Source: a virus. From it: 23,120 nucleotides of DNA. The stretch spans positions 1 through 23,120 of IMG/VR virus record IMGVR_UViG_3300046507_000614. The stretch is one strand, 5' to 3'. The position numbers were made by a program, and so were the translations under genes. Under the pieces are notes generated by a model, which was not told the origin of the DNA, did not search any database, and saw nothing but the letters and a program-made list of their open reading frames with translations. Each line of letters begins with the position of its first letter. Position 1 is the first letter of the stretch. This document shows, piece after piece, positions 409-13,115 of this stretch.

Positions 409-1419
409 TCAACGCCCTTCAAGCAACTCGGCGGCTTGATCCAGCAACGCCAGCGGATCCTTGGCCTTGTGAATATCCACCGACAACAACTGACGGAATT
501 TACGCGCCCCCGGGAACCCCGTGCCCAGGCCCAGCACATGCCGCGTGATGTGATGCATCGCGCCGCCGGCCGCCAAATGCTCGGCTATATAAGGACGCAA
601 CTGCGCCAACGCCTCAGCCCGACTGATCACCGGCGCCGAACTGCCGAACAACTGCTGATCCACCTCCGCCAGCACATACGGATTGTGATATGCCTCGCGC
701 CCCAACATCACGCCGTCGAACGTCTGCAAATGCTCATGGCAAGCCTCCATCGTCTTGATCCCGCCGTTCAGCACAATTTCCAACTCCGGAAAATCCGCCT
801 TCAACTGCGCCGCCACGTCATAACGCAACGGCGGAATGTCGCGATTCTCCTTCGGCGACAACCCCTCCAGAATCGCAATCCGCGCATGCACGGTAAAACT
901 CGTGCACCCGGCATCGCGGACGGTGCCGACGAAATCGCACAGCTCGGCGTAACTGTCGCGACCATTGATGCCGATGCGGTGCTTCACCGTGACCGGAATT
1001 GACACCGCGTCACGCATGGCCTTGACGCAATCCGCCACTAACTGTGGGTGACCCATCAGGCAGGCGCCGATCATGTTGTTCTGTACGCGATCGCTTGGGC
1101 AGCCGACGTTGAGGTTTACCTCGTCGTAGCCGTGCTCCTGCGCCATGCGTGCGCAGGCGGCCAGGTCGAGGGGGACGCTACCGCCGAGTTGCAACGCCAA
1201 AGGATGCTCGGCTTCGTTGTGACGGAGGAAGCGTTCGTGATCGCCGTTGAGGAGAGCGCCGGTGGTGACCATTTCGGTGTAGAGCAGGGCGTTCTTCGAC
1301 AGGAGGCGTAGGAAGAAGCGGCAGTGACGGTCGGTCCAATCCATCATGGGCGCAACAGAGAAGCGCCGAGACAGCGCAGGGCTTGTGTTTACTGGGCTGG
1401 AGTGCTTGTTTTGTACCAT
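409..1419 (-). CDS. dusA: tRNA-dihydrouridine(20/20a) synthase DusA
   Basis: This FMN-dependent enzyme reduces uridine to dihydrouridine in the D-loop of tRNAs. The FMN-binding start of the TIM barrel is seen as SVAPMMDWTDRHCR near residues 21-34. The catalytic cysteine is in NLNVGCPSDRVQ (about C107), and VKHRIG and LNGGI motifs follow. The length of about 336 aa is normal. I chose the ATG at 1419, which has a GAG-type ribosome site about 7 bases upstream. The frame stays open to an ATG at 1431 and a TTG at 1494. The first ~18 residues before LSRRFSVAP and all the upstream DNA may come from the phage, because the integrase gene begins only 87 bp away. The gene therefore looks functional but re-promoted by integration. 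Confidence 0.93.
   Translation of the reverse strand: MVQNKHSSPVNTSPALSRRFSVAPMMDWTDRHCRFFLRLLSKNALLYTEMVTTGALLNGDHERFLRHNEAEHPLALQLGGSVPLDLAACARMAQEHGYDEVNLNVGCPSDRVQNNMIGACLMGHPQLVADCVKAMRDAVSIPVTVKHRIGINGRDSYAELCDFVGTVRDAGCTSFTVHARIAILEGLSPKENRDIPPLRYDVAAQLKADFPELEIVLNGGIKTMEACHEHLQTFDGVMLGREAYHNPYVLAEVDQQLFGSSAPVISRAEALAQLRPYIAEHLAAGGAMHHITRHVLGLGTGFPGARKFRQLLSVDIHKAKDPLALLDQAAELLEGR
1349..1367. other. Candidate att core within the 5' end of dusA
   Basis: A 5-bp inverted repeat with a 9-base spacer (GGCGC, AACAGAGAA, GCGCC) lies where dusA encodes the residues just before the MMDWTD motif. Integrases encoded next to dusA are known to use a conserved site at the 5' end of that gene, and this dyad is the best core-like structure I see there. 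The second att copy would be outside the window, so the exact core cannot be confirmed here. Confidence 0.35.
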
Positions 1420-1516
1420 TTCGCTCAACATGTTTACGGCGTGTTTTTGGGCGTTTTCAGGCGTTTTTTCGATGGTACTGGTACAATGTACCAACCAATT
1501 TAAGAAATGTACCAGT
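1413..1516. repeat. Cluster of five TGGTAC/GTACCA hexamers at the int-dusA junction
   Basis: The hexamer occurs as GTACCA at 1413-1418, 1488-1493 and 1509-1514, and as TGGTAC at 1473-1478 and 1479-1484. Two of them form a perfect 9-bp inverted repeat (ACTGGTACA 1477-1485, TGTACCAGT 1508-1516). A tighter pair forms TGGTACA-A-TGTACCA (1479-1493). The cluster covers the integrase start region and the dusA upstream region. Likely roles are arm-type binding sites for integrase or an operator controlling int. Confidence 0.55.
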
Positions 1517-1521
1517 CGACT

Positions 1522-2646
1522 ATGGCAACGATCAGAGCACGAAAACGCACCGATGGCTCAGTCAGCTACACGGCACAAATACGCCTGTTTCGCGACGGAA
1601 CGCAAGTCTATCAAGAGAGCCAGACCTTTGCCCGGAAACAGGCGGCACAGGCGTGGGTGCGTCGACGTGAGGCTGAGTTGGATCAGCCAGGTGCAATTGA
1701 GCGAGCGAACCGGAAGGGCGTCACTGTCCAGGACATGATCAATCAGTACCTCGATGAAATGAAGAAAGTCCGCCCTCTTGGTAAGACAAAGGAGTGGACT
1801 CTTAACGCCATTGCAGCATCGGAATTTGGGCAAACTGTTGACTCGGCCATCAATAGCCAACGGCTAGTGGATTTTGCACTCTGGCGCATGAGTAAAGAGG
1901 GTGGAGGCGTGCAGCCGCAGACTGCCGGCAACGATCTGGCGCATTTGGGCGCTGTCCTGTCCATCGCTCGACCTGCATGGGGGTATGAAGTCGACATCCA
2001 CGCTATGGCAGACGCTCGCAAGGTTCTGAGGAAGTTGGGGTACAACATGAAAAGCCGGGAGCGAGATAGACGCCCGACTAAGGACGAACTGGATAAATTG
2101 ATGGAGCACTTCGTAGGCATTCAGCAGCGTCGACCCACTTCGATCAACATGCTCAAAGTCACAGGTTTTGCACTGTTCTCTACGCGCAGGCAGGACGAGA
2201 TAAGCCGAATGCTTTGGGAGGACGTTGATGAAGAGCGTCAGCAGGTGATGGTTCGAGATATGAAGAATCCGGGTCAGAAAATTGGCAACAATGTTTGGTG
2301 CCACCTCCCGGATGAAGCTTGGCGCATTCTCCAGAGCATGCCGAAAGAACGGGCCGAAATTTTCCCCTATAACTCATCTTCGATCGCGACGGCCTGGGCG
2401 AAAGCGTGCAAGTTTCTGGAGATTGAAGATCTGCACTTCCACGATCTGCGGCACGACGGCGTAAGCCGGTTATTTGAAATGGATTGGGACATCCCGCGAG
2501 TGGCTAGTGTTTCCGGGCATCGAGATTGGAATTCTCTACGTCGGTATACCCACCTGCGTGGAAGAGGTGACCACTATGCCCAATGGACGTGGTTAGAGAA
2601 GATAATCCAGGCGCCAGTGAAACTGGGCGCCTGGGGTAAGCAGTGA
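1522..2646 (+). CDS. int: Tyrosine-family phage integrase (dusA-targeting)
   Basis: A site-specific recombinase that inserts and excises the prophage. The N-terminus (about residues 1-60) looks like an Arm-type DNA-binding domain (MATIRARKR, then an SYTAQIRLFRDG strand pattern). A SAM-like core-binding region follows (about 65-170), then the catalytic domain. Counting from the chosen start, catalytic residues are Arg223 (RRQDEIS), Lys248 (MKNP), His307 and Arg310 (HFHDLRH), His333 (SGHRD) and the nucleophile Tyr342 (RRYTHL). The set is complete, so the enzyme should be active. An in-frame ATG at 1507 is possible. I prefer 1522 because MATIRARKR is the usual N-terminus of this group, although neither start has a strong ribosome site. 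It is oriented away from dusA and convergent with the leftward operon; the stop codons are one base apart. Confidence 0.92.
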   Translation: MATIRARKRTDGSVSYTAQIRLFRDGTQVYQESQTFARKQAAQAWVRRREAELDQPGAIERANRKGVTVQDMINQYLDEMKKVRPLGKTKEWTLNAIAASEFGQTVDSAINSQRLVDFALWRMSKEGGGVQPQTAGNDLAHLGAVLSIARPAWGYEVDIHAMADARKVLRKLGYNMKSRERDRRPTKDELDKLMEHFVGIQQRRPTSINMLKVTGFALFSTRRQDEISRMLWEDVDEERQQVMVRDMKNPGQKIGNNVWCHLPDEAWRILQSMPKERAEIFPYNSSSIATAWAKACKFLEIEDLHFHDLRHDGVSRLFEMDWDIPRVASVSGHRDWNSLRRYTHLRGRGDHYAQWTWLEKIIQAPVKLGAWGKQ

Positions 2647-2647
2647 A

Positions 2648-2923
2648 TCAGCTGGCTCTGCGGTAGCCGTTGAGCTGGTTGAATTCCTTAACCGCTGCCT
2701 CCCGTTGGAGATCCAAGTAAGCTGCCAGATCAGTGATATGGATTCCTTTGGCGCTTTTTTGGCTCGGCTCCATCCGCATGATTGGGATTTTGATCTGCCC
2801 GGCCATAACCTTGCGCTGGAACATATCGGTGGTGAGGTGAGTAAAGTAGTCCTTGCAAATCATGTCCAGCGGGATGATCGCTTGGCCGTTGTACTGAGCC
2901 ATCAGGATAAAAGCAGTGTTCAT
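2648..2923 (-). CDS. prtN: PrtN-like pyocin activator family protein (copy 1)
   Basis: A 91-aa protein of the PrtN (pyocin activator) family. In Pseudomonas aeruginosa PrtN switches on pyocin genes after the repressor PrtR is inactivated. The family pattern is clear: MNTAFILMAQYNGQAIIPLD at the start, FQRKVMAGQIKIPIMRME in the middle and SAKGIHITDLAAYLD towards the end. The start is fixed by a strong AAGGAGG ribosome site five bases upstream. It overlaps the preceding gene by ATGA, so the two are probably translationally coupled. It is the last gene of the leftward early operon. A role as a prophage-encoded transcription activator is inferred from the family. Confidence 0.85.
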   Translation of the reverse strand: MNTAFILMAQYNGQAIIPLDMICKDYFTHLTTDMFQRKVMAGQIKIPIMRMEPSQKSAKGIHITDLAAYLDLQREAAVKEFNQLNGYRRAS

Positions 2924-3555
2924 TTTTCCTCCTTGGCTGCAGGTTGATCCTGTTGTCCTCTGCTGGTTTTCGGCCACTTCAGTGCTTCCTGCTTCCACGC
3001 TCTTCGCTTCCAAGCTGCGTAGCCGGCCCGGTACGCGTAATGTTCTCGGGCGAACGAGTCAGATGTCTTCGCACCTGGCGCGGTGATGTACGTGCCTCGC
3101 TGGGTGCAGTACTGCAGGCCTTCGTGGATTGGGAACTCTTTCTCGAACTCAATCCGCTCATCGATCGGAATCCGGTCGGCGGCTTCTTGAGACGGGCTTT
3201 CAGTTTTTCTCTCAGGGTGCGTATACCCCACAGCAGGCTGCGCGGGCGGGCGATTCTGAGCGATTAGCGTTGCATTGAGTGTGGCTGCCTCGCGCAGCTT
3301 CTCGTGGGGTATAAGCGCCTCGGTGGTGGTGCTGAGAGGAGCAATAATGCCTGCTGCTACGCAGCAGTGGCTGTTCGTTTCTAGTGTGTCGACGCTGGTT
3401 TCTCTGCAGAACAAAGCGGTCGTGGATTGGGTGCTTTGCAGTTCCTTTTGCATGCCGCTTTCCTCCGAGATTTGATGGCAAGTTGGTTCTTCAAGCGCAG
3501 GTGAGGCGATAGCCGGGTTGTGGTGGTTGCGCGAGTGATTGCACGTTTTAGTCAT
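2920..3555 (-). CDS. Hypothetical phage protein of the leftward operon
   Basis: A 211-aa soluble protein that I cannot assign. The first ~100 residues are of low complexity, rich in Thr, Ser, Ala, Pro and His, and look disordered. The C-terminal ~75 residues look folded and carry a pattern seen in many small phage proteins of unknown function (HEGLQYCTQRGTYITAP, then HYAYRAGYAAWKRRAWKQE). The ATG at 3555 has an AGGGGGA ribosome site and overlaps the previous stop by ATGA; the 3' end overlaps prtN copy 1 in the same way. Coding is supported by this chain of ATGA overlaps and by the strong ribosome site of the next gene lying at its 3' end. Confidence 0.75.
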   Translation of the reverse strand: MTKTCNHSRNHHNPAIASPALEEPTCHQISEESGMQKELQSTQSTTALFCRETSVDTLETNSHCCVAAGIIAPLSTTTEALIPHEKLREAATLNATLIAQNRPPAQPAVGYTHPERKTESPSQEAADRIPIDERIEFEKEFPIHEGLQYCTQRGTYITAPGAKTSDSFAREHYAYRAGYAAWKRRAWKQEALKWPKTSRGQQDQPAAKEEK

Positions 3556-3971
3556 GCTGCGTCCCCCTGTTTTACTGTCTGCAACAAAGCTGCGAGGGCG
3601 AGGGCCTGGTCTTGCAAGGCGCGGGTTTCGCGTTCGAGTTTTTTGCCAGTGCGGAAGGCGGCGAAGGTCTCAGCGGCGATGCGCAGCTTCTCGGCGATGT
3701 CGATTAATGTCTGGCGTTCTGTTTCGCCAAATTCCGATGTTTGCTGCAAGCGCTTGCTGAATTGCGCCAGTCGGGTGTGATCCGCTTTGATGAAGTCGAG
3801 AGATGCCCTGAGTTCGCAAATGGTTTTGGCGTTTTCAGCGCGTTCGGTATTCTTCCCATCCTCTCGTCCTTCATATCGGCCATCAGCCATCCCGTTGCGA
3901 TAACCAACCCAGTAAACAAGGATTGCGCCTGCAATGAGGCCTATCAGTGCGCATGTTTGAATTACGGTCAT
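3552..3971 (-). CDS. Small membrane-anchored coiled-coil protein
   Basis: A 139-aa protein of unknown function. Residues about 3-24 (IQTCALIGLIAGAILVYWVG) form one N-terminal membrane helix. A charged stretch rich in Gly, Glu and Asp follows, then a long helical, coiled-coil-like region (about 45-135). The plan resembles an inner-membrane spanin, but it sits in the early leftward operon and no partner gene is visible, so I do not call it Rz. An upstream in-frame ATG exists at 3995. I prefer 3971 because an AGGAG ribosome site lies eight bases before it. The stop overlaps the next gene by ATGA. Confidence 0.72.
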   Translation of the reverse strand: MTVIQTCALIGLIAGAILVYWVGYRNGMADGRYEGREDGKNTERAENAKTICELRASLDFIKADHTRLAQFSKRLQQTSEFGETERQTLIDIAEKLRIAAETFAAFRTGKKLERETRALQDQALALAALLQTVKQGDAA

Positions 3972-4028
3972 GTGGTGTGCTCCTGGTGATGTCATTGGCT
4001 GGTGGTGGCAGCCGTTTGGTTTATGGTG

Positions 4029-4346
4029 TTACTCGTTCGCGTCGTCCTGGTGTCGATGCATGTCTTCGTCGGCTTTGTAGGCGCGGATGTCGATCAGTGA
4101 GGCTACGTGCCGGATGTGGGCGTACTTGGGTGCCTTGCGGCTGGTATCCAGCGTGGTGATGGGGAGCTGGATGCGGCCGCTGCTGATCTCGGCCACGAAC
4201 GATTGCTCGTTGAGGTTGCGGAAGTACTGCTCGCGCACTTTGTCCAGCGGGATCAGGACGTCGCCGAAGATGCGGTAAAGCAATTCGACGGTGGCTGACT
4301 CCGGCGCCGGGTGCAGGCGTAACGGGTTTTGTGCTGTGTTACTCAT
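4029..4346 (-). CDS. PrtN-like pyocin activator family protein (copy 2)
   Basis: A second, divergent PrtN-type protein of 105 aa in the same operon. The family layout is visible from about residue 20: VELLYRIFGDVLIPLDKV, then FVAEISSGRIQLPITTLD, then KYAHIRHVASLIDIRAYKAD. A ~20-residue N-terminal extension precedes it. Compared with copy 1 the sequence is strongly diverged, so this is not a recent duplication. An AAGGAGG ribosome site lies 12 bases upstream, a little far. The gene overlaps its upstream neighbour by 8 bp. It may bind a different site, or modulate copy 1; nothing in the sequence decides between these. Confidence 0.78.
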   Translation of the reverse strand: MSNTAQNPLRLHPAPESATVELLYRIFGDVLIPLDKVREQYFRNLNEQSFVAEISSGRIQLPITTLDTSRKAPKYAHIRHVASLIDIRAYKADEDMHRHQDDANE

Positions 4347-4518
4347 GGCTTTGTTGGGCCTCCTTGCGTTGTTTTCTGGCCGGGTGGTTCCAGGCGTTCA
4401 GGCAATGCGTTCTGGTCAGCTCGCGCAGATGTTCGGGCACTTCGAGGAGCGCGGCGTTGCGCTCCTCTCGTGTCCGCATGGCGATGATCTGGCTGGCGTA
4501 TTCCCTAGGCCACGTCAC
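4339..4518 (-). CDS. Small phage protein of unknown function (59 aa)
   Basis: A short protein with a pattern familiar from Pseudomonas phage operons: TWPREYASQIIAM, then RTREERNAALLEVPEHLREL, then a basic tail. It looks like a compact helical protein; no function is known to me. I chose a GTG at 4518 because the conserved part begins with TWPREYA, and this start overlaps the upstream stop by 14 bp. An internal ATG (MRTREERN) is a shorter alternative. The 3' end overlaps the next start by 8 bp. The reading frame stays open far upstream, but that part is a shadow of the KilAC-type gene. Confidence 0.6.
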   Translation of the reverse strand: MTWPREYASQIIAMRTREERNAALLEVPEHLRELTRTHCLNAWNHPARKQRKEAQQSHE

Positions 4519-4789
4519 GGCAGTCTGCCGGAATGGCGGGTAGGTCGATTCCCAACTGTTCAGCCAGCCAACGGATACCGGGCTGTTTGATCCGGGTCGA
4601 TTGGCTGTACTGCATGCCGAGCTGATCGTGGTACCACTGGCCGTCCTTGATTCGCAGGTAATCGCGATCACGGGTGGGGTAAGTCGGTAGGTTCCGCTCG
4701 TTGAGCAGACCTTTTTCACGCATGCGTGCAATGAGCTTCGGGCGAGTCAGGCCGAGGTGGGTTGCGGCTTGGGCAAGGGTGCGTTCCAT
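4505..4789 (-). CDS. Stand-alone KilAC-type DNA-binding domain protein
   Basis: A 94-aa protein resembling the C-terminal KilAC domain of phage antirepressors. The typical pattern is visible: TLAQAATHLGLTRPKLIARM (helix-turn-helix), then LNERNLPTYPTRDRDYLRIK, then a paired-strand region with YSQSTRIKQPGIRWLAEQLG. Antirepressors normally carry a second N-terminal domain (Bro-N or Rha), which is absent, so this is a single-domain version, probably a regulator. The ATG at 4789 has a GAGGGG ribosome site about seven bases upstream. It follows the 196-aa gene by ten bases and overlaps the next small gene. Confidence 0.75.
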   Translation of the reverse strand: MERTLAQAATHLGLTRPKLIARMREKGLLNERNLPTYPTRDRDYLRIKDGQWYHDQLGMQYSQSTRIKQPGIRWLAEQLGIDLPAIPADCRDVA

Positions 4790-4799
4790 GGTGTGCCCC

Positions 4800-5390
4800 T
4801 CATGCCGCGGGCGCAGCTGGTGTTGCCGCTGCAGCAAGGTGGTTGATGGACTCGCTGACTTTGCCGTAGATCTCGACATCGCTGCCGTATACGGTGAAGC
4901 AGCGGGTGTGGGGGCTTTTGTTACCGATGCTCAGGATGGTGGTGACACCTGATCGAGATTGAGTGCGGTGCAGCGCGACTATTAGCGGGTAGTCGAAACC
5001 CATGTCGAGGTTCAGCACACCTCCGGTGCACACCAGCTCAAACACTCGCTGCTTGTCCGAGACTTCAAAGCGGCCGTATTCGCGGCTGGCGTGGGGGCGA
5101 TGCAGCAGATCGCTGGAATTGCTCGCGTCGAACGGGCCGTTGGCAATCTCTTCGATGAAGTCGGCCAGCTTGAGATGCATTTTTTTTTCGTTCGGCAGGG
5201 TCAACGTGTGTCGGTCGCTGCCCAGCTCCACGACGAAGGTGCTTGCTGAGATGCCACGTTCAACCTTGAGGCGAAACGCCAGGCACTCGCGCCTAGGCGC
5301 AGTCCGCAAGACGTGGTTGAAGGTCTCGGTCAGGTTGACCTGGGCATTGAGCAACTGCAGGGTGCGATTGTCGATTTTGTACTTGATCAT
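4800..5390 (-). CDS. Hypothetical phage protein (196 aa)
   Basis: I do not recognise this protein. It is soluble, without membrane segments, of mixed alpha/beta character, and ends in an Ala/Pro-rich tail (LAAAATPAAPAA). A good ribosome site (GGAGGG) lies eight bases before the ATG, and the start overlaps the preceding stop by ATGA. On the coding strand there is a run of nine A residues (plus-strand T run 5180-5188) inside codons for NEKKM. Such a run can cause transcriptional or sequencing slippage, but the frame is intact here. Position in the operon suggests an early accessory role. Confidence 0.72.
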   Translation of the reverse strand: MIKYKIDNRTLQLLNAQVNLTETFNHVLRTAPRRECLAFRLKVERGISASTFVVELGSDRHTLTLPNEKKMHLKLADFIEEIANGPFDASNSSDLLHRPHASREYGRFEVSDKQRVFELVCTGGVLNLDMGFDYPLIVALHRTQSRSGVTTILSIGNKSPHTRCFTVYGSDVEIYGKVSESINHLAAAATPAAPAA

Positions 5391-5563
5391 GCTGTATGCC
5401 CTCCGCCGTTCGGATCGATTTGGGCTGGAGTTGCGCGTGCTTGCAGCTTAGGTTTGCTGGTCACAAACGCGCAGCCGCACTCGCGGGCTAACCGGCGGGT
5501 CTCGAATATTATGAAAGCGTTGGCGGCGGCGGGGTGGACGTGCAGGGTTGCTGTGGTGCGCAT
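5387..5563 (-). CDS. Small phage protein, first gene of the leftward operon (58 aa)
   Basis: A 58-aa reading frame begins with MRTTATLHVHPAAANAF and ends GGGHTA. It has a central FETRRLARECGCAFV segment and a Pro/Gln-rich tail. It starts at an ATG with GAGGA about ten bases upstream and ends with an ATGA overlap into the 196-aa gene, which is the main evidence that it is real. It is the first gene behind the operator-controlled leftward promoter. Function unknown. Confidence 0.65.
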   Translation of the reverse strand: MRTTATLHVHPAAANAFIIFETRRLARECGCAFVTSKPKLQARATPAQIDPNGGGHTA

Positions 5564-5600
5564 GGTTTTATCGTCCTCTGTGGTGGAGAGAACGGCAATA

Positions 5601-5619
5601 ATTAACCCAAAAGGTTAAT
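5601..5619. promoter_or_regulatory. CI operator, leftward copy
   Basis: A perfect inverted repeat ATTAACC-N5-GGTTAAT. Near-identical copies flank the cI-cro start region at 8304-8322 and 8344-8362. It is the only copy I found away from cI-cro, placed to control the leftward operon. Confidence 0.75.
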
Positions 5620-5626
5620 GTGTCAA
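5601..5626 (-). promoter_or_regulatory. Leftward early promoter (PL-like) with embedded operator
   Basis: On the minus strand a perfect TTGACA (plus 5621-5626) is followed 16 bases later by TAATTA as a poor -10. The 19-bp operator ATTAACC-CAAAA-GGTTAAT (5601-5619) fills the spacer, so bound repressor would block RNA polymerase. The layout matches the cro promoter at 8336-8364. The stop codon of the ADP-ribosyltransferase gene lies inside the -35 box. Confidence 0.7.
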
Positions 5627-6243
5627 ATGCAAAGTATACCTTGGTGGTGATTTTTCCGGGGCGAGGTATGTATTTTTGATTGATCTATATGGATTGCGCT
5701 CGAATGGATAAAATCAATATTTGTAACGCAGCAGACAGTGGCGTTCGGATAGCTAGATTCTAAAACTAGTTTTCGCTGCATCTCATTCTTGATATAGGTA
5801 TTATGAATTAATACTTGGATGTCAAGTTTTTCCAATACTAGGTTTGTGATTATCTGATCATCCAGTCGGATATCTCGTCTTTTCTTTATAGCTAAGTCTC
5901 GCCTGTTTTCGAGTTCTTCAGCATGTGTAGTTACGATCCAGTCCCTAGCTTCGTTATAAATTTTCAATTGGGTAACCGATGTCAGATCAAGAAAGTGTTT
6001 TTCAGGGACACTTATTTCTGACCGTACTATTGTTGTAGGTGTTTCACCATGGCAGTTTTTGGCCCACTCTTGAGCATTTTTTTTTGGGCAGGAGATCCCA
6101 TTGGTGAAAAAATATACACCATGACCTAGCCAGTTTTCAGGATGGAAATGTATAATAAAATTACTGCTAATAATGGATTCTGCATTTTCTTGAGTGGTTC
6201 CATGAAATGCAGATAGCGTAATTGTTTTTTGGGGAGGGAGCAT
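5623..6243 (-). CDS. PARP-like (ART-fold) ADP-ribosyltransferase, putative toxin or signal enzyme
   Basis: A 206-aa protein with the N-terminal hallmarks of the H-Y-E ADP-ribosyltransferase fold. FHGTT gives the NAD-binding His14-Gly-Thr, and an AESII helix follows. WLGHGVYFF supplies Tyr44, and a helix with AQEWAKN comes next. The third (Glu) position cannot be assigned by eye. The family moves ADP-ribose from NAD to protein, nucleic acid or a small molecule, or hydrolyses NAD; which applies here is unknown. The ATG at 6243 overlaps the macrodomain gene's ATG in the sequence CATG; a TTG at 6255 is an upstream alternative. The DNA is AT-rich with rare codons, unlike its neighbours, which suggests recent transfer. 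It does not look like DarT. Fold call moderately sure; function inferred. Confidence 0.68.
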   Translation of the reverse strand: MLPPQKTITLSAFHGTTQENAESIISSNFIIHFHPENWLGHGVYFFTNGISCPKKNAQEWAKNCHGETPTTIVRSEISVPEKHFLDLTSVTQLKIYNEARDWIVTTHAEELENRRDLAIKKRRDIRLDDQIITNLVLEKLDIQVLIHNTYIKNEMQRKLVLESSYPNATVCCVTNIDFIHSSAIHIDQSKIHTSPRKNHHQGILCI

Positions 6244-7183
6244 GATCACTTTCAAGATGATAGTTTTATTGGGTTTTGGATGGCTGCACAGGGCTTATGA
6301 GCAATGGCGGCGTCAAAACGTATTTAGAAAAGCTGCGCCGTTATTGATTGCTACAGGTGGAGGGCTTTTGACTCCTTCGATTTGGGAAATTGTTTTCACC
6401 AAGTCGTTAGCTTCTTATGAGGCAATCAATTCGTTAAAAACAGAAAGTTCTCCAGATTACGGTTCATTCGTAGGTATGTTCCTGGTTGGGGTTGGGGTGA
6501 TATTTTATGTTGTTTCACATTTTTGTAAAGTCGAAGAGGTAAAGGAGTTTATTTTTGATAAAAAAATTTATGGGCCCTTTTTAATAGACAAGGCTAGGGT
6601 GCATTGCTATTCCGGCTCCGTTACTCAGATTAGTGGAATTGATGTTGTTGTTACATCGGAGGATACCGATCTTAATCTCGGCAGTCTTTCAGGTACTTCT
6701 GTCTCAGGGCGCATGCGTAACATGGCTGCGAACCATGGGGTGTCAGGGGTTTCGTCTGACAACCTGTCACTTTGGATTCAAGATTGGAAGAAAAGTGTCG
6801 GTATGTTTTCCAATTTTCCTCTCGGAGAAACTGTTCCGCTAAACAATACATTCGAAGCTGCTTCTTGGGGCGTTAAGGCTATAATTTTTGCTGTAGCGCT
6901 TCGAAAAAACTCCAATCGAGTTGGAACAGTTGAAAAAGGTGCAATAGATAAAATAGTTCATAGCGCAATTACTTATGCTATAGCTAACGGATACAAAAGC
7001 ATCTTTTTTCCTGTGTTCGGAATAGGTAGTGGTAATGTCCCTCCTAAGATTGCACTTGGCTATACGGTCGATTCGGTATGTAATTATCTAAAGACTGGGG
7101 GCTATGATTTGGATGTATACATAGGTGTGTATACTTTTCATGATACTGTGAGCGTCACCACCTCTCTGGCGAAATGGGTTTGA
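6242..7183 (+). CDS. Two-helix membrane protein with C-terminal macrodomain
   Basis: A 313-aa protein with two predicted membrane helices, about residues 31-53 and 74-94. A soluble macrodomain (about 116-300) follows, the fold that binds ADP-ribose and its derivatives. Macro features seen: the strand IDVVVTSED (133-141), a helix, the strand VKAIIFAVAL (211-220), an AI..A...A helix, then SIFFPVFGIGSGNVPP (253-268), the phosphate-binding loop. The usual NAAN catalytic motif after the first strand is replaced by TSED, so MacroD-type hydrolysis is unlikely and binding or sensing more likely. Two helices plus macro is also the plan of the ThsA effector of type II Thoeris. The ATG has a GGGAGG ribosome site five bases upstream. 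The DNA is very AT-rich (6541-6600: 18 of 60 G+C). Confidence 0.75.
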   Translation: MITFKMIVLLGFGWLHRAYEQWRRQNVFRKAAPLLIATGGGLLTPSIWEIVFTKSLASYEAINSLKTESSPDYGSFVGMFLVGVGVIFYVVSHFCKVEEVKEFIFDKKIYGPFLIDKARVHCYSGSVTQISGIDVVVTSEDTDLNLGSLSGTSVSGRMRNMAANHGVSGVSSDNLSLWIQDWKKSVGMFSNFPLGETVPLNNTFEAASWGVKAIIFAVALRKNSNRVGTVEKGAIDKIVHSAITYAIANGYKSIFFPVFGIGSGNVPPKIALGYTVDSVCNYLKTGGYDLDVYIGVYTFHDTVSVTTSLAKWV

Positions 7184-7186
7184 CCT

Positions 7187-7642
7187 ATGGTAGTGGAGGA
7201 TCTGCGCTGCCTTAGGTTGACTTGTAATTCTATAAGGCTCGGTTATACGTCGGGTGTTTTTGATCTTTTTCATCATGGGCACGCTTCCTATTTGGAAGAG
7301 TGCAGAAAACTATGTGATGTACTTGTGGTGGGTGTAGATGCTGATGCCATGGTTAGGCGTAATAAAGAAGAAGGGAGACCAATTCAGTCGGCAAAGGATC
7401 GTCTAGCAAAAGTCAGCGAGATGGTTGAGTATTGCTTTTTGAAAGAGAAGCCATCTATTTTTTATATTGAAATTTTGCGTCCTTCTTATCATTTTTTCTC
7501 CAGTGAGAAAATATTGCGTCCTGAACATGTTTCAATAATATCGTCAATTGAAGGATTTGTGGGGCTGTTTACAATTCCATACGTTGATGGCATATCAACA
7601 ACGGAAATTTTGCGGCTGAAAATGGACAAGTCGATCAGCTAA
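7187..7642 (+). CDS. TagD/RfaE-like HxGH nucleotidyltransferase
   Basis: A 151-aa protein of the cytidylyltransferase-like superfamily, which joins a nucleoside monophosphate from CTP or ATP to a phosphorylated substrate. The two diagnostic motifs are present: GVFDLFHHGH (HxGH at 29-32) and GISTTEI (135-141). Between them RRNKEEGRPIQSAKDRL matches the loop of TagD and of the adenylyltransferase half of RfaE/HldE. It lies three bases after the macrodomain stop, with no clear ribosome site, which suggests coupled translation. Its stop overlaps the cI stop by three bases. The substrate is unknown; an ADP-ribose or NAD-related substrate is only a guess from the neighbours. It shares the low GC of the cassette. 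Confidence 0.78.
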   Translation: MVVEDLRCLRLTCNSIRLGYTSGVFDLFHHGHASYLEECRKLCDVLVVGVDADAMVRRNKEEGRPIQSAKDRLAKVSEMVEYCFLKEKPSIFYIEILRPSYHFFSSEKILRPEHVSIISSIEGFVGLFTIPYVDGISTTEILRLKMDKSIS

Positions 7643-8286
7643 AGCTCTGAGATGATCCATCTGGCTCTGCCGCAGATTGTCCATTCCTCTGTCATGCGGA
7701 TAATTCTTTCTGGCCAATCAGGGTTTATGGCATAAAGATATTGTTCGCCACCTTCTTGTTTAAGTTGCTTCAATGTCGCGGCTTGATCACGTGTTCTCTT
7801 CGCAGCGACGTAATGGCCGGGTAGAGCTTCAAGCGCAGGATCAATTACGATTTTATCGCCCTCCATAAATTTGGGTTCCATGCTTATTCCCTCAACCCGA
7901 AGGATGAAAGCACGGGGCCCCACGGGGCCGGGCGCATCAATCCATTCTTCTGCATCTCTCGGATCGAAAGTGCCGTGAGCCTCACACCACGCTCCCGCAG
8001 CAATTGATCCTATCACTGGCAATTTACGTCCTGTGTGGCTGAGAACCGTAGCGTTATTGAATTCACCTAACCCGTAAGGCATGTCTAGATAGCCGCTGTG
8101 GAGGCTTAAAGCTTTCTCAATCTCACGAGCTATCTGATCGCCGATCCCCTTCGTTGGATTCTTGCCGCCGAACGCGCTGACCTGGGCAGGTGCTTTACCC
8201 AATAGATCGGCTATGTCAGTCAGGCGAAGTTTTTTCTCGGCCAAAACTCGTCGGAAATTTTGTAGGCGTGTGTCAGAGATTTTCAT
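7639..8286 (-). CDS. cI: Phage repressor CI (HTH + S24 peptidase)
   Basis: A 215-aa lysogeny repressor of the LexA/CI type. The N-terminus carries a helix-turn-helix (RLTDIADLLGKAPAQVSAFG, residues 21-40). The C-terminal half is an S24 autoprotease: cleavage site Ala97-Gly98 (IAAGAW), nucleophile Ser135 (VEGISMEPKF) and Lys173 (ATLKQL). RecA-stimulated self-cleavage in the SOS response should therefore induce the prophage. The ATG at 8286 has no obvious ribosome site; a TTG two codons upstream is an alternative. The transcript may have little or no leader, since operator 8304-8322 sits only 18 bases upstream. It is divergent from cro. Confidence 0.92.
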   Translation of the reverse strand: MKISDTRLQNFRRVLAEKKLRLTDIADLLGKAPAQVSAFGGKNPTKGIGDQIAREIEKALSLHSGYLDMPYGLGEFNNATVLSHTGRKLPVIGSIAAGAWCEAHGTFDPRDAEEWIDAPGPVGPRAFILRVEGISMEPKFMEGDKIVIDPALEALPGHYVAAKRTRDQAATLKQLKQEGGEQYLYAINPDWPERIIRMTEEWTICGRARWIISEL

Positions 8287-8303: not shown

Positions 8304-8322
8304 ATTAACCAACAGGGTGAAT
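8304..8322. promoter_or_regulatory. CI operator next to cI
   Basis: ATTAACC-N5-GGTGAAT, one mismatch from the perfect dyad seen at 5601. It lies 18 bases before the cI start codon and so probably serves autoregulation of cI. Its start is 40 bp from that of the cro-side copy, close to a whole number of helical turns. Confidence 0.68.
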
Positions 8323-8335
8323 GTCCTTGTGGGTG

Positions 8336-8364
8336 TTGATAAAAATAACCTTATAGGTTAATTT
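8336..8364 (+). promoter_or_regulatory. cro promoter (PR-like) with embedded operator
   Basis: TTGATA (8336-8341), a 17-base spacer and TAATTT (8359-8364) form a plausible sigma-70 promoter. The operator AATAACC-N5-GGTTAAT (8344-8362) fills the spacer. Transcription would enter cro about 20 bases downstream and then the replication genes. Confidence 0.65.
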
Positions 8365-8383: not shown

Positions 8384-8617
8384 ATGAAGCTTCGCAAATA
8401 CATCAATTCTCTGGACGCAGATGGCTTGGCGGGTTATGCCGGCCGTTGCCGTATTGCAGAGAGCTATTTACGCCTCCACGTCAAATATGCGAGCAAGGAT
8501 CCTAGCGTTTCTCTGATCAAGTCTTTGGCCCGAGAAAGCGAGGGTTACGTTTCGTTGGCTGAGGTTCTGGAGCATTTTGGTGTCACCGAAAATGTTTCGA
8601 TAAACAAAATGAAATAA
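8384..8617 (+). CDS. cro: YdaS-like Cro regulator
   Basis: A 77-aa DNA-binding protein of the YdaS/Cro type, the usual opponent of CI in such immunity regions. The pattern KLRKYINSLDADGLAGYAGRC, then AESYLRLHV, gives the helix-turn-helix with a characteristic GRC-x4-YLRLHV stretch. A GGGAGA ribosome site lies eight bases before the ATG. It is the first gene of the rightward early operon, driven by the promoter at 8336-8364 and divergent from cI. Calling it Cro rests on position and family; direct DNA binding to the shared operators is expected but not shown here. Confidence 0.8.
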   Translation: MKLRKYINSLDADGLAGYAGRCRIAESYLRLHVKYASKDPSVSLIKSLARESEGYVSLAEVLEHFGVTENVSINKMK

Positions 8618-9690: not shown

Positions 9691-11896
9691 AGTGTTGGGG
9701 CAGTTCACAGATTACGGTCTTGAGCCAGCGCAGCCCTTGGTGTTCGGCAAGCTGACTCGCTGCAAGACTTCTCAGGACAAGGGCAAGGAAAAGAACGGTT
9801 GGTATGTCGTTCACGAGCAGCGCACGGAGAAAGGCGAGACGCTGATCTTCGGCGCGTTCGGTGACTGGCGCTCCGGTGAGTCTCAAAAGATCAAGGTCAA
9901 GGCTGGACGGATGTCGCCTGAAGAACGCGAAGTTATGCGCGCTCGACAGGAGGAGGCCAAACGCCGCGCGGCTGAGATCTCGGCCAACGCGGCACGTCGT
10001 GCTGCGAAGCGTGCAGCGGGTATGTTCAAACGCATGCCAGAGAAGGGCCGTAGCGACTATCTGGATCGCAAGCAGATTGTTGGCTTTGGCGTTCGGTATG
10101 CGCCCCGCACCGGTGCGTTTCTGGTGCCGATGAGCAATTTGCGCGACGAGATTGTCGGACTGCAGGTGGTGTTCCCGACCAAGCAAGAGGACACCGGTCG
10201 GGACAAGTCCTATTGGCCTTACGGCATGTCGAAGGAGGGCGCTTTCCATCTGATCGGGCCGCACCCGGATCCGGGCGAGCCGGTGCTGGTGTGTGAGGGC
10301 TACGCGACCGGCGCAAGTCTGCATATGGCCACGTCATTGACCGTGGCCGTTGCGTTTGATGCGGGCAATTTGCTGGTGGTTTGCAAGGCCGTGCGCGAGC
10401 GTTTCGCCGGTTGCCCGTTGATCATCTGCCGAGACGATGACTGGAAGACCACGAAGCCGAATGGCGATGCGTGGAACCCCGGTGAAGAGAAAGCGAACAA
10501 CGCGGCGCTGATTGTCGGCGGCCAGGTGGTCGCGCCGATCTTTTCCGGTGAACGGGAAGCCAAGTGGACTGACTTCAACGACCTGCATGTTGCAGAAGGT
10601 TTGGAAGCTGTGCGTCGTCAGGTGCTGGCAGTGGTCAAGCCGCCGGCTGCTGGTGGTTGGAAGGATCTGCTGGCGCGTAGCGAAAGTGGCGCACTGATTG
10701 CGCACATGCAGAATGTCGAGTTGATCTTGGCCAATGATGAGCGTTGGGCCGGGGTCATCAGTTACAGCGCGTTCAGTTCAAAGCTCGTCAAGCTACGTGC
10801 GGCGCCGTATGGCGGCGGCACGGGCGATTGGGCGGACATTGACGATGTGCGGGTGATGAAGTGGCTCGCGCAGCAGTACAACTTGCGGGTCAAGGCCTCG
10901 CATGTGATCGAGGCGGTGAGTGTGGTTGCGCATGACCATGCTTTTCATCCAGTACGGCAATACCTGCGCAAGCTTGAGTGGGACAGGGTGCCGCGTCTTG
11001 AAAGTTGGCTGACTGAGGTCATGGGCGTTAAGGCGACTGACTACTCGTCGAAGGTCGGCAAGCGCTGGTTGTTGTCGGCAGTGGCGCGGGTGATGAAGCC
11101 TGGCTGTAAGGCAGACTCGGTGATGATTCTGGAGGGTGCGCAGGGCGCGGGTAAATCTACGGCGATGAGTATTCTGGGCGGCGAGTGGTTTATGGACACG
11201 CCGTTTGCGTTGGGTGACAAGGACGGCTTTCAAGCGATCCGGGGCAAGTGGATCGTTGAGTTGGGAGAGCTGGACAGCTTCAACAAGGCTGAGAGTACCA
11301 AGGCCAAGCAGTTCTTTTCGGCGTCCACCGACACTTATCGCGAAAGCTATGGCCGCAGAACGATGGACGTGCCACGCCAGTGTGTTTTCGTGGGTACGAC
11401 CAACCAAGACGAGTACCTGAAAGATGCCACGGGCAACCGGCGGTATTGGCCGGTGGCGTGTACCAAGGTGGATCTTGAGCTGTTGCGATCGATGCGCGAT
11501 CAGCTGTGGGCCGAAGCGGTGTTCTGTTACGACGCGGGCGATCTTTGGTGGGTGACGCTGGACGAGGCGCCTATGTTCGGCGAGGAGCAGGACGAGCGCT
11601 TCGTCGTGGATGAGTGGGAAGGGCCGATTCTGACCTGGTTGGAAGAGTCGCAGATTGGCGAAACCACCACCGGCAGTGAGGTGCTGGCCAGTGCGCTGAA
11701 GTTGGACTTTGGGCATTGGGGCAAGCCGGAGCAGATGCGGGTCGGGGCGATCATGCATCGATTGGGTTGGCGGCGCGTGCGGTTGCCTGCGTTGGCTAAG
11801 AGCGGGCAGCGGCCATGGGCTTACAAGAAACCGGCAGGGTGGGGCGGTGCCTCGGCGCTGCAGCGTGAAGCGTTGGAGGAGCCTTGTTTTGATTAA
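9680..11896 (+). CDS. Phage DNA primase-helicase (Toprim + VirE-type P-loop)
   Basis: A 738-aa replication protein. The N-terminal third holds a Toprim primase domain (about 130-300) with acidic residues at VLVCEGYATGASL (Glu206) and ICRDDDW (about 252-254). A P-loop ATPase of the VirE type follows, with Walker A GAQGAGKS (486-493) and Walker B around KWIVELGELD (523-532). GTTNQDEYLKDATGNRRYW (about 572-590) contains the usual sensor and arginine-finger region. It primes and unwinds phage DNA at the origin. The ATG has a GGGGG-type ribosome site and overlaps the TraR-like gene. No N-terminal zinc ribbon is obvious. The TAA overlaps the next start by 8 bp. Confidence 0.88.
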   Translation: MLDEVLGQFTDYGLEPAQPLVFGKLTRCKTSQDKGKEKNGWYVVHEQRTEKGETLIFGAFGDWRSGESQKIKVKAGRMSPEEREVMRARQEEAKRRAAEISANAARRAAKRAAGMFKRMPEKGRSDYLDRKQIVGFGVRYAPRTGAFLVPMSNLRDEIVGLQVVFPTKQEDTGRDKSYWPYGMSKEGAFHLIGPHPDPGEPVLVCEGYATGASLHMATSLTVAVAFDAGNLLVVCKAVRERFAGCPLIICRDDDWKTTKPNGDAWNPGEEKANNAALIVGGQVVAPIFSGEREAKWTDFNDLHVAEGLEAVRRQVLAVVKPPAAGGWKDLLARSESGALIAHMQNVELILANDERWAGVISYSAFSSKLVKLRAAPYGGGTGDWADIDDVRVMKWLAQQYNLRVKASHVIEAVSVVAHDHAFHPVRQYLRKLEWDRVPRLESWLTEVMGVKATDYSSKVGKRWLLSAVARVMKPGCKADSVMILEGAQGAGKSTAMSILGGEWFMDTPFALGDKDGFQAIRGKWIVELGELDSFNKAESTKAKQFFSASTDTYRESYGRRTMDVPRQCVFVGTTNQDEYLKDATGNRRYWPVACTKVDLELLRSMRDQLWAEAVFCYDAGDLWWVTLDEAPMFGEEQDERFVVDEWEGPILTWLEESQIGETTTGSEVLASALKLDFGHWGKPEQMRVGAIMHRLGWRRVRLPALAKSGQRPWAYKKPAGWGGASALQREALEEPCFD

Positions 11897-12248
11897 GGAG
11901 ATCGATTCGCTGCTTCGGTTGTGGGCGCAGGAGCTGCATTCAGAACATTCGAAAGGGGGCCTGGCTGGGGGAAATATGGTTGCCATGATGATGGAGAGCA
12001 ACGGGCAACTGATCAGAGGGCGGCGTGCATTCCGTGCGCCGCTCGAAAGTTCGTTGGACATTGAGCTGATCGTGACTAAGCACCTCGCGCCGGAGCTGGA
12101 GACGGTGGTGCGTGAGCATTACTGCACGCTTGATGTTGATATGCGCCTGCGGTATGCCCACTGCGGTTGCGGCCGCGACACGTACTACCAGCGTTTGCAT
12201 GAGGCACATCTGCAGATCTTCGGCGTGATGATGGGGCAGGCTGCGTGA
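11889..12248 (+). CDS. Probable late-gene regulator (Q/ArpU-like)
   Basis: A 119-aa protein placed between the replication and late genes. The C-terminal part (PELETVVREHYCTLDVDMRL, then CGCGRDTYYQRLHEAHLQI) looks like the sigma-70 region 4-type helix-turn-helix of Q-like and ArpU-like phage regulators. I chose the TTG at 11889 because it sits eight bases after a strong GGAGGAG ribosome site and overlaps the primase stop by 8 bp. The frame is open upstream, but there it is a shadow of the primase gene. The terminator at 12733-12758 downstream fits a protein that lets polymerase reach the late genes. Whether it acts by antitermination or as an activator cannot be read here. Confidence 0.6.
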   Translation: MIKEIDSLLRLWAQELHSEHSKGGLAGGNMVAMMMESNGQLIRGRRAFRAPLESSLDIELIVTKHLAPELETVVREHYCTLDVDMRLRYAHCGCGRDTYYQRLHEAHLQIFGVMMGQAA

Positions 12249-12550: not shown

Positions 12551-12684
12551 ACCACAGCAGCAACAGATTGCCGGGGAGGTGTATTCGCCGACATTCGCTA
12601 GGCGTTCACCCTGCGTTACCCACTTATTCACCGGGTGGCATTAAAACAGGGTTGCTGCCACCGGAATCGACCTGTAAAAAGTAG
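12535..12684 (+). CDS. Possible small phage ORF (low confidence)
   Basis: An open frame of 49 codons from a GTG at 12535, or 46 from the ATG at 12544, reads MGHHSSNRLPGRCIRRHS and ends PPESTCKK. It has no good ribosome site and overlaps the repeat region. The basic, Cys- and Pro-containing composition is unremarkable. I list it because the end resembles short frames I associate with this position in Pseudomonas prophages, but it may be non-coding leader. Confidence 0.2.
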   Translation: MGRMGHHSSNRLPGRCIRRHSLGVHPALPTYSPGGIKTGLLPPESTCKK

Positions 12685-12732: not shown

Positions 12733-12758
12733 AAACCCGGCCATTGCGCCGGGTTTTT
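12733..12758 (+). terminator. Intrinsic terminator before the late operon
   Basis: A perfect 9-bp stem (AAACCCGGC 12733-12741, loop CATTGC, GCCGGGTTT 12748-12756) runs into a run of five T. It should stop transcripts from the early operon 18 bases before the holin gene, as expected if late expression needs an antiterminator. Confidence 0.8.
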
Positions 12759-12776: not shown

Positions 12777-13115
12777 ATGACAAGCGAGCAACAAGCACTG
12801 GCAGAGATGCCGATCTGGTTAGTGATCGTCCTGGCGTTGGTCGGTGGCGTGTCGGGGGAGATGTGGCGGGCGGACAAAGATGGAGCACGGGGCTGGGCGT
12901 TGTTGCGCAGGCTCGCGCTTCGGTCGGGTGCCTGCATTGTCTGCGGGGTAACGGCAATGATGTTGATGATCGCTGCCGGCATGACGATCTGGACGGCGGG
13001 CGCTTTGGGTTGCCTCACAGCTATGGCCGGCGCCGATGTTGCTATCGGGTTGTACGAACGATGGGCTGCCAAGCGGCTTGGCCTTTCCGAATCGGCATCG
13101 ACCGACCGCACCTAA
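12777..13115 (+). CDS. Phage holin (LydA-type)
   Basis: A 112-aa protein with about three membrane helices: IWLVIVLALVGGVSGEMW, then SGACIVCGVTAMMLMIAAGM, then IWTAGALGCLTAMAGADVAI. The tail is basic (RWAAKRLG). The plan and the phrase MWRADKDGARGW fit the LydA-type holins of Proteobacterial phages, which time host lysis by forming lesions in the inner membrane. It is the first gene after the terminator. No endolysin follows directly, so the rest of the lysis genes must lie further right. The ribosome site before the ATG at 12777 is weak; a start at Met11 is possible and would still give all three helices. Confidence 0.83.
   Translation: MTSEQQALAEMPIWLVIVLALVGGVSGEMWRADKDGARGWALLRRLALRSGACIVCGVTAMMLMIAAGMTIWTAGALGCLTAMAGADVAIGLYERWAAKRLGLSESASTDRT

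Follow-up and report, generated by a model that had tools for sequence, protein, structure and literature searches.

Two PrtN-family genes in a CI-controlled operon of a Pseudomonas prophage: a probable excision factor and a probable late gene activator

The DNA analysed here (the window) is the entire IMG/VR record IMGVR_UViG_3300046507_000614 of 23,120 bases, and contains a Pseudomonas prophage from its dusA-side end through to the head genes. Its leftward operon carries two genes with the domain of the pyocin activator PrtN (PF11112), designated gene A and gene B. Sequence comparison makes it quite probable that one CI-repressed operon produces two paralogous PF11112 proteins, an exit factor (A) and a late gene activator (B). 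The original prediction for this DNA had proposed that both might switch on phage late genes or host pyocin genes; the best model is that A and B are not two activators, and perform different jobs within one family.

Two PF11112 genes in one leftward operon

Gene A (91 amino acids (aa) from its ATG; a longer reading from a TTG, to position 3013, is unnecessary) and gene B (105 aa) both matched PF11112 over the full length and far beyond chance (E 7.9e-31, 106.5 bits for A; E 1.8e-28, 98.9 bits for B; cut-off 24.2). They are 33% identical over 61 aa, in agreement with the two distantly related PrtN members of the original prediction. The lone KilAC domain described there was also recovered, in a 94-aa protein (PF03374, E 5.7e-8, 33.5 bits, cut-off 25.3). 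All three genes belong to one leftward gene run, the first open reading frame (ORF) of which starts at 5563. They are not neighbours: two genes (3552-3971 and 2920-3555) separate B from A, and a 59-aa ORF between the KilAC gene and B overlaps both.

The reference pyocin locus (L310) was recognised by its trpE-prtN-prtR order, and the same PrtN domain was present in loci L325-L328. Gene B shares 45 of 95 residues (47%) with pyocin PrtN, versus 18 of 71 (25%) for gene A. The 445 PF11112 ORFs collected, in which some genes are counted in more than one locus, were reduced to 65 representatives for a tree. It split B and pyocin PrtN from A (ultrafast bootstrap, UFBoot, 98), and B is closest to the PrtN of the prtN-prtR pyocin locus. 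A groups apart from pyocin PrtN with homologues from mobile elements, in a tree without RdfN itself; the homologues of Salinivibrio SMHB1, Vibrio and mEp460 fall on its side. In some A-carrying elements (L175 6371-6679, L203 7802-8095, L172 and L188) the place of B is taken by a third type of PF11112 protein (MSNTL..QLR..FATPCP), which branches on the PrtN side.

A perfect palindrome, ATTAACCnnnnnGGTTAAT (5601-5619), lies inside the sigma70-like promoter of the operon. With up to 3 mismatches allowed, there were only two other sites in the 23 kb (8304-8322 and 8344-8362), both between cI and a small rightward gene at 8384 (the cro side). Three operators were thus found versus 0.41 expected, a number reached in none of 100 shuffles. 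Because the same operator occurs in the operon promoter and in the cI-cro gap, the predicted CI control of the leftward operon holds at the sequence level, and gene B would be under an S24-type repressor. Between cI and the operon lie cargo genes (5623-7642), of which those at 6242-7642 run rightward.

The KilAC gene was present in all 80 B-seeded phage loci, at 162 nucleotides (nt) from B in 77, and a homologue of the 59-aa ORF was likewise present in 80/80, with fixed spacing in 76. Since both precede B at fixed spacing in nearly all loci, the KilAC gene, the 59-aa ORF and B form a cassette. As a guess, the KilAC protein and the 59-aa ORF may assist B. A second N-terminal domain, as in longer phage antirepressors, was not found: the 94-aa protein consists of the KilAC domain alone (the phrog_63 profile is 431 long), and for this reason we do not call it an antirepressor.

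A pyocin-type promoter precedes the late genes

The holin of the window (PF16085) is 59% identical over 111 aa to the pyocin holin, and the stretches 5' of the two holin genes are identical at 71 of 97 positions (E 8e-12). The promoter hexamers in this stretch (TTGCTG-17-TAAAAA) were assigned by eye, a consensus scan reporting none there, and the leader hairpin comes from an RNA fold and was not picked up by the terminator scan. A promoter pattern built from the window and pyocin stretches was scanned over viral contigs and found at least 119 stretches. Among the matches listed, a holin homologue was present within 900 nt in 116 of 128 pattern loci; the other 12 had none within that distance, in some cases where the sequence ends. 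Loci L367, L386, L410 and L418 look like chance matches to the pattern.

Upstream of the promoter, the trinucleotide RTT recurs at -96, -85, -74, -63 and -52, in 74, 81, 84, 73 and 86 of 86 distinct phage segments, respectively (two of these, L422 and L452, look pyocin-like). Elsewhere RTT occurs in a mean of 6% of the segments; one other conserved offset, -38, reaches 97%. In the window the spacing of the repeats is 10, 11, 11 and 11. The P-box is described as usually having four repeats of 10-11 nt with the consensus ATTGnn(n)GTnn(n) (PMC4905994). In the four pyocin segments RTT was present at -85, -74 and -52 (4/4 each), and also at -42. A direct-repeat search was made in the wrong part of the pyocin locus and gave nothing useful.

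Another explanation leaves B a minor part and has the late genes switched by antitermination: the phrog_4300 protein would act on the leader hairpin, and the repeats would be a residue of lineage. The phrog_4300 gene indeed precedes the promoter and the hairpin lies between promoter and holin, which leaves room for an added antitermination step. The phrog_4300 protein, however, has no Pfam match to a Q-type antiterminator, and the repeats are conserved across the 86 distinct segments. Part of them is also retained in pyocin loci, the expression of which is reported to need PrtN (PMC8609362, PMC9431673). We consider it unlikely that antitermination is the main switch; activation by B and antitermination may act together.

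By eye only, the phrog_4300 protein resembles the ORF between prtR and the holin gene of a pyocin cluster (L326 7788-8147). A short ORF that looks DksA-like by eye follows prtR in the pyocin cluster, and DksA-like genes are annotated near the primase in the phages Haddon and U5.

The promoter occurs together with gene B

Co-occurrence was counted in contigs larger than 30 kb. The promoter was present in 31 of 32 B-carrying contigs, versus none of 41 contigs with A and no B near; three of these 41 hold a second PF11112 gene, which was left unclassed. Starting from the promoter, all 27 contigs carrying it had a PF11112 gene (27/27), and a B-type gene was present in 27/27. In 21 Pseudomonas-group genomes with A, B was found in 10. 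Seven of these 10 contained the exact promoter motif, once each and 6.5-8.8 kb from B, and the remaining three contained a homologous stretch by blastn (one cut by a contig end); the exact motif was absent from all 11 genomes with A and without B. A search of 50,697 phage records with the promoter region matched exactly four when matches to the hairpin alone are disregarded: Haddon, LPPA36, U5 and OQ658366. The same four hold B at more than 50% identity, and the only further such record is the 7.5-kb fragment MT837188.

These counts also bear on the earlier suggestion that proteins of the prophage activate pyocin (tailocin) genes of the host. The 47% identity of B to PrtN and the homology of the promoters speak for it, but in the 21 A-bearing genomes the exact motif occurred at most once per genome, beside the prophage's own B, a pattern that would miss diverged tailocin promoters. 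No third PF11112 gene is present in genome G001, which carries a close relative of the window prophage, and PF11112 was not matched anywhere in 162 of 298 Pseudomonas genomes. For this host type, activation of host pyocins by the prophage is unsupported, and we rate it as decidedly improbable. Such cross-talk may be relevant if a PrtN is encoded by the host as well as by the phage, as for the P. aeruginosa phages Haddon and U5.

In phage vB_Pae_U5 (L166 5174-5974) a gene annotated as 'integrase' lies directly 5' of the B-type gene, and another excisionase lies near the genome end.

Gene A follows the dusA integrase

The 3' end of gene A is one base from that of the convergent integrase. To the 121 A-seeded loci, viral contigs contributed 80 and genomes 41. 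An integrase of the window type, convergent and abutting A (gap -100 to +11), was present in 99 of the 121. In the remainder it was convergent at 1-4.5 kb (8 loci), unseen with less than 400 nt beyond A (11 loci), or absent (3 loci: Bosea, a Rhodospirillaceae metagenome-assembled genome and Roseobacter). Half of the B-seeded loci (40/80) also carry A, and the dusA-type integrase was seen in 38 of these; the other 40, without A, never had it (0/40). Of the A-less loci, 37 end in a co-directional ORF, which belongs to one further group in 23 loci and to another in 14; all 10 such ORFs scanned were PF00589 recombinases. A thus comes and goes with the dusA integrase within one phage type. Because its presence follows that integrase among the B-seeded loci, A tracks the integrase and not the phage backbone.

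It could be argued that A and B are both excision factors, B being a second or old recombination directionality factor (RDF), since both match phrog_1300, labelled 'excisionase'. Against this, none of the 206 ORFs that fall with PrtN in the tree abuts a dusA integrase, versus 159 of 239 on the A side, and B persists in the 40 phage loci without this integrase, 37 of them with the other recombinase groups at their end. In addition, the B clade contains pyocin PrtN, and related pyocin-like prophages have been described without integrase genes (PMC2647930). A pair of excision factors is therefore very unlikely.

A Vibrio dusA element was reported to need RdfN, a PF11112 protein, in order to excise, and RdfN together with Int to suffice; the authors see the same RDF role in most likely all dusA elements (PMC8409611). 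A prtN homologue had been noted in 60 of 94 dusA islands, with a role then unknown (PMC4482086). With its 91 aa, gene A comes close to the size of RdfN-type PF11112 proteins (about 76-90 aa), and its integrase lies beside dusA. We conclude that gene A is a probable RdfN-type RDF, which would act in excision. That A is instead a PrtN-like transcription activator, the true excision factor being another gene of the operon, is the least probable explanation. The PrtN Pfam domain of A speaks for it; against it, A is tied to the integrase and not to the phage backbone, and another dusA element is reported to use a member of this family, RdfN, as its RDF (PMC8409611). The proposed activation of late genes thus remains probable for B, which belongs to the pyocin-PrtN branch and has a P-box-like array and a pyocin-type promoter 5' of the holin and terminase genes to act on, and is unsupported for A, which tracks the dusA integrase and groups with RdfN-type excision factors.

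In the coliphage mEp460 (L340 3974-6670) a putative exonuclease gene is followed by one for a PF11112 protein, which lies about 1.3 kb from the integrase. As mEp460 carries this protein, RdfN-type proteins occur in coliphages too.

Proposed model

The division of labour between A and B draws on homology, clade, operator, operon order, co-occurrence and promoter homology. From these we infer the following course. Upon SOS induction CI would cleave itself and the leftward operon would open. The RdfN-type protein A would tip the dusA integrase toward excision of the prophage, and B would bind the 10-11 bp repeats and activate the late promoter. This promoter would then drive holin, terminase and the following late genes, and with them lysis, packaging and head formation.

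Several observations weigh against this model. The PF16085 holin was found in none of the 41 contigs with A and without B, so that their lineages differ from the B-carrying set. Because the two sets of phages differ in lineage and holin, the promoter and B may have been inherited together with no direct contact between them; their occurrence in pyocin clusters and named P. aeruginosa phages argues for a link beyond shared descent of one lineage. The pyocin segments lack RTT at -96 and -63 (0/4 each). The RTT ladder is a candidate for the P-box-like repeats before late genes that the original prediction had called for, but a scan with the published P-box consensus had no match in the window, nor did it find the true pyocin box. 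In three of four loci the latter reached a score of 16-17 of 24, and in the fourth it fell outside the top five, while the maxima in random 23-kb sequences were 16-20. Since it does not tell a real pyocin box from random sequence, the scan of the window was set aside. The 11-bp periodicity gave z 6.2-7.3 at lag 11, and a control stretch gave z 8.1 at lag 9; these values are inflated because the sequences are related, and are not proof.

To these points come the phrog_4300 gene 5' of the promoter with the leader hairpin 5' of the holin, and the 'excisionase' label that PHROG 1300 gives to both A and B. No dusA repeat above background, as a candidate attR, was detected in the 40 kb upstream of the relative in G001. 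The AlphaFold models of A and B were mediocre (mean predicted local distance difference test score, pLDDT, 78.6 and 69.6) and Foldseek found no significant PDB match for either (best match no better than E 0.34 and E 0.09, respectively); a PDB sequence search with gene A gave no match. The weak matches of the A model include a phage P2 DNA-binding protein (4lhf, E 0.48), which we take to be Cox, and the Pukovnik Xis (4j2n, E 2.2), and are suggestive only.

The model may be extended. The family would have split into an exit factor and a late activator that are fired from one SOS operon, coupling exit with particle-making, and the PrtR-PrtN-P-box-holin control of pyocins would be this phage switch, kept by the host after loss of head and integration genes. 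To this extension we give an even chance. If it is true, late activation in phages is the primary role of PrtN and pyocin regulation a secondary one.

Features of the window

The features are listed in Table 1. The homology to dusA of several other genome loci ends at 1362-1375; dusA has been described as an integration target, its 5' end being replaced by that of the element (PMC4482086). An Rfam search of the window gave no match. The cargo genes at 5623-7642 encode a weakly PARP-like protein (PF00644, E 0.001; PADLOC PD-T4-9_A, E 3.9e-5), a weakly matching Macro-domain protein (PF01661, E 0.0014) and a cytidylyltransferase-like protein (PF01467, E 2.5e-11), and are possibly a phage-defence cassette of the PD-T4-9 kind.

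Table 1. Positions of genes and sites in the window
Feature	Position	Strand	Remarks
dusA, integration target	409..1494	-	element supplies its 5' end, about 1375-1494
dusA-type tyrosine integrase	1507..2646	+	PF00589, E 1.2e-16
Gene A, RdfN-type, probable RDF (excisionase)	2648..2923	-	PF11112, phrog_1300 'excisionase'; convergent with integrase
211-aa protein	2920..3555	-	no Pfam or PHROG match; stop overlaps gene A start
139-aa protein	3552..3971	-	phrog_28176
Gene B, PrtN proper, probable phage late promoter activator	4029..4346	-	PF11112; clade with pyocin PrtN
59-aa ORF	4339..4518	-	start overlaps KilAC gene end; stop overlaps gene B start
Lone KilAC (ANT) domain protein	4505..4789	-	PF03374; phrog_5689
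196-aa early protein	4800..5390	-	phrog_15582; present in 80/80 B loci
58-aa ORF, first gene of leftward operon	5387..5563	-	present in 80/80 B loci
Leftward promoter TTGACA-17-AATTAT	5598..5626	-	repressor operator ATTAACCCAAAAGGTTAAT at 5601-5619 between hexamers
CI repressor with S24 peptidase domain	7639..8286	-	PF00717, E 1.7e-21
Repressor operator	8304..8322	.	1 mismatch versus palindrome
Repressor operator	8344..8362	.	1 mismatch versus palindrome
phrog_4300 protein	11889..12248	+	position is that of the 119-aa ORF between prtR and holin in pyocin clusters
P-box-like array	12583..12629	+	RTT at 12583, 12593, 12604, 12615, 12626
Late promoter TTGCTG-17-TAAAAA	12652..12680	+	followed by conserved leader GTAGTCATCTTCGATAGGTGCG
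Leader hairpin, then T run, 5' of holin gene	12733..12758	+	RNA fold
Holin, superfamily III	12777..13115	+	PF16085, E 1.1e-52

Comparison with known systems

RdfN as an RDF, PrtN as the pyocin activator and the presence of two prtN-like genes in P. protegens Pf-5 prophage 03 are known from print. In the open-access literature we found no paper assigning the two clades to two jobs and, mostly from search listings, none naming PrtN as a phage late activator or naming a phage PrtN target. PrtN homologues in many dusA islands carry the labels 'role unknown', 'pyocin activator' or 'excisionase'. Separation by clade would predict exit factor or activator from the sequence and correct this mixed annotation. 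A phage model would also allow the promoter of PrtN to be studied outside a killing system. The question of what drives rdfN in prophage-like dusA elements, raised in PMC8409611, would be answered in part, with a CI-repressed operon as the driver here.

The Pseudomonas phages Haddon and vB_Pae_U5 have a B-type gene and a homologous late promoter, as in the window. Haddon also has an A-type gene adjoining an integrase of the window's type. U5 has a different excisionase near its end and no A-type match in the stretch examined. Prophage 03 of Pf-5 was noted in 2009 to carry two prtN-like genes in one prophage; in the account consulted (PMC2647930) these are not told apart by clade or role.

Like gene A, RdfN of IMEVchUSA3 and the PrtN homologues of dusA islands are PF11112 proteins on elements with a dusA integrase (PMC8409611, PMC4482086). 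RdfN is described as being under AcaCD, whereas A is in a CI-repressed phage operon, and A is likened to RdfN here by domain and gene setting; RdfN and its Pf-5 homologue are reported to be 29% identical (PMC8409611).

The PrtN/PrtR system of the P. aeruginosa R- and F-pyocins shares with B the clade (47% identity), control by an S24-type repressor, and a homologous promoter and holin. By contrast, the predicted target of B in the window is the late region of a phage, with genes for terminase and head; an RDF-type gene and a KilAC gene belong to the same operon as B, and some of the repeat units differ.

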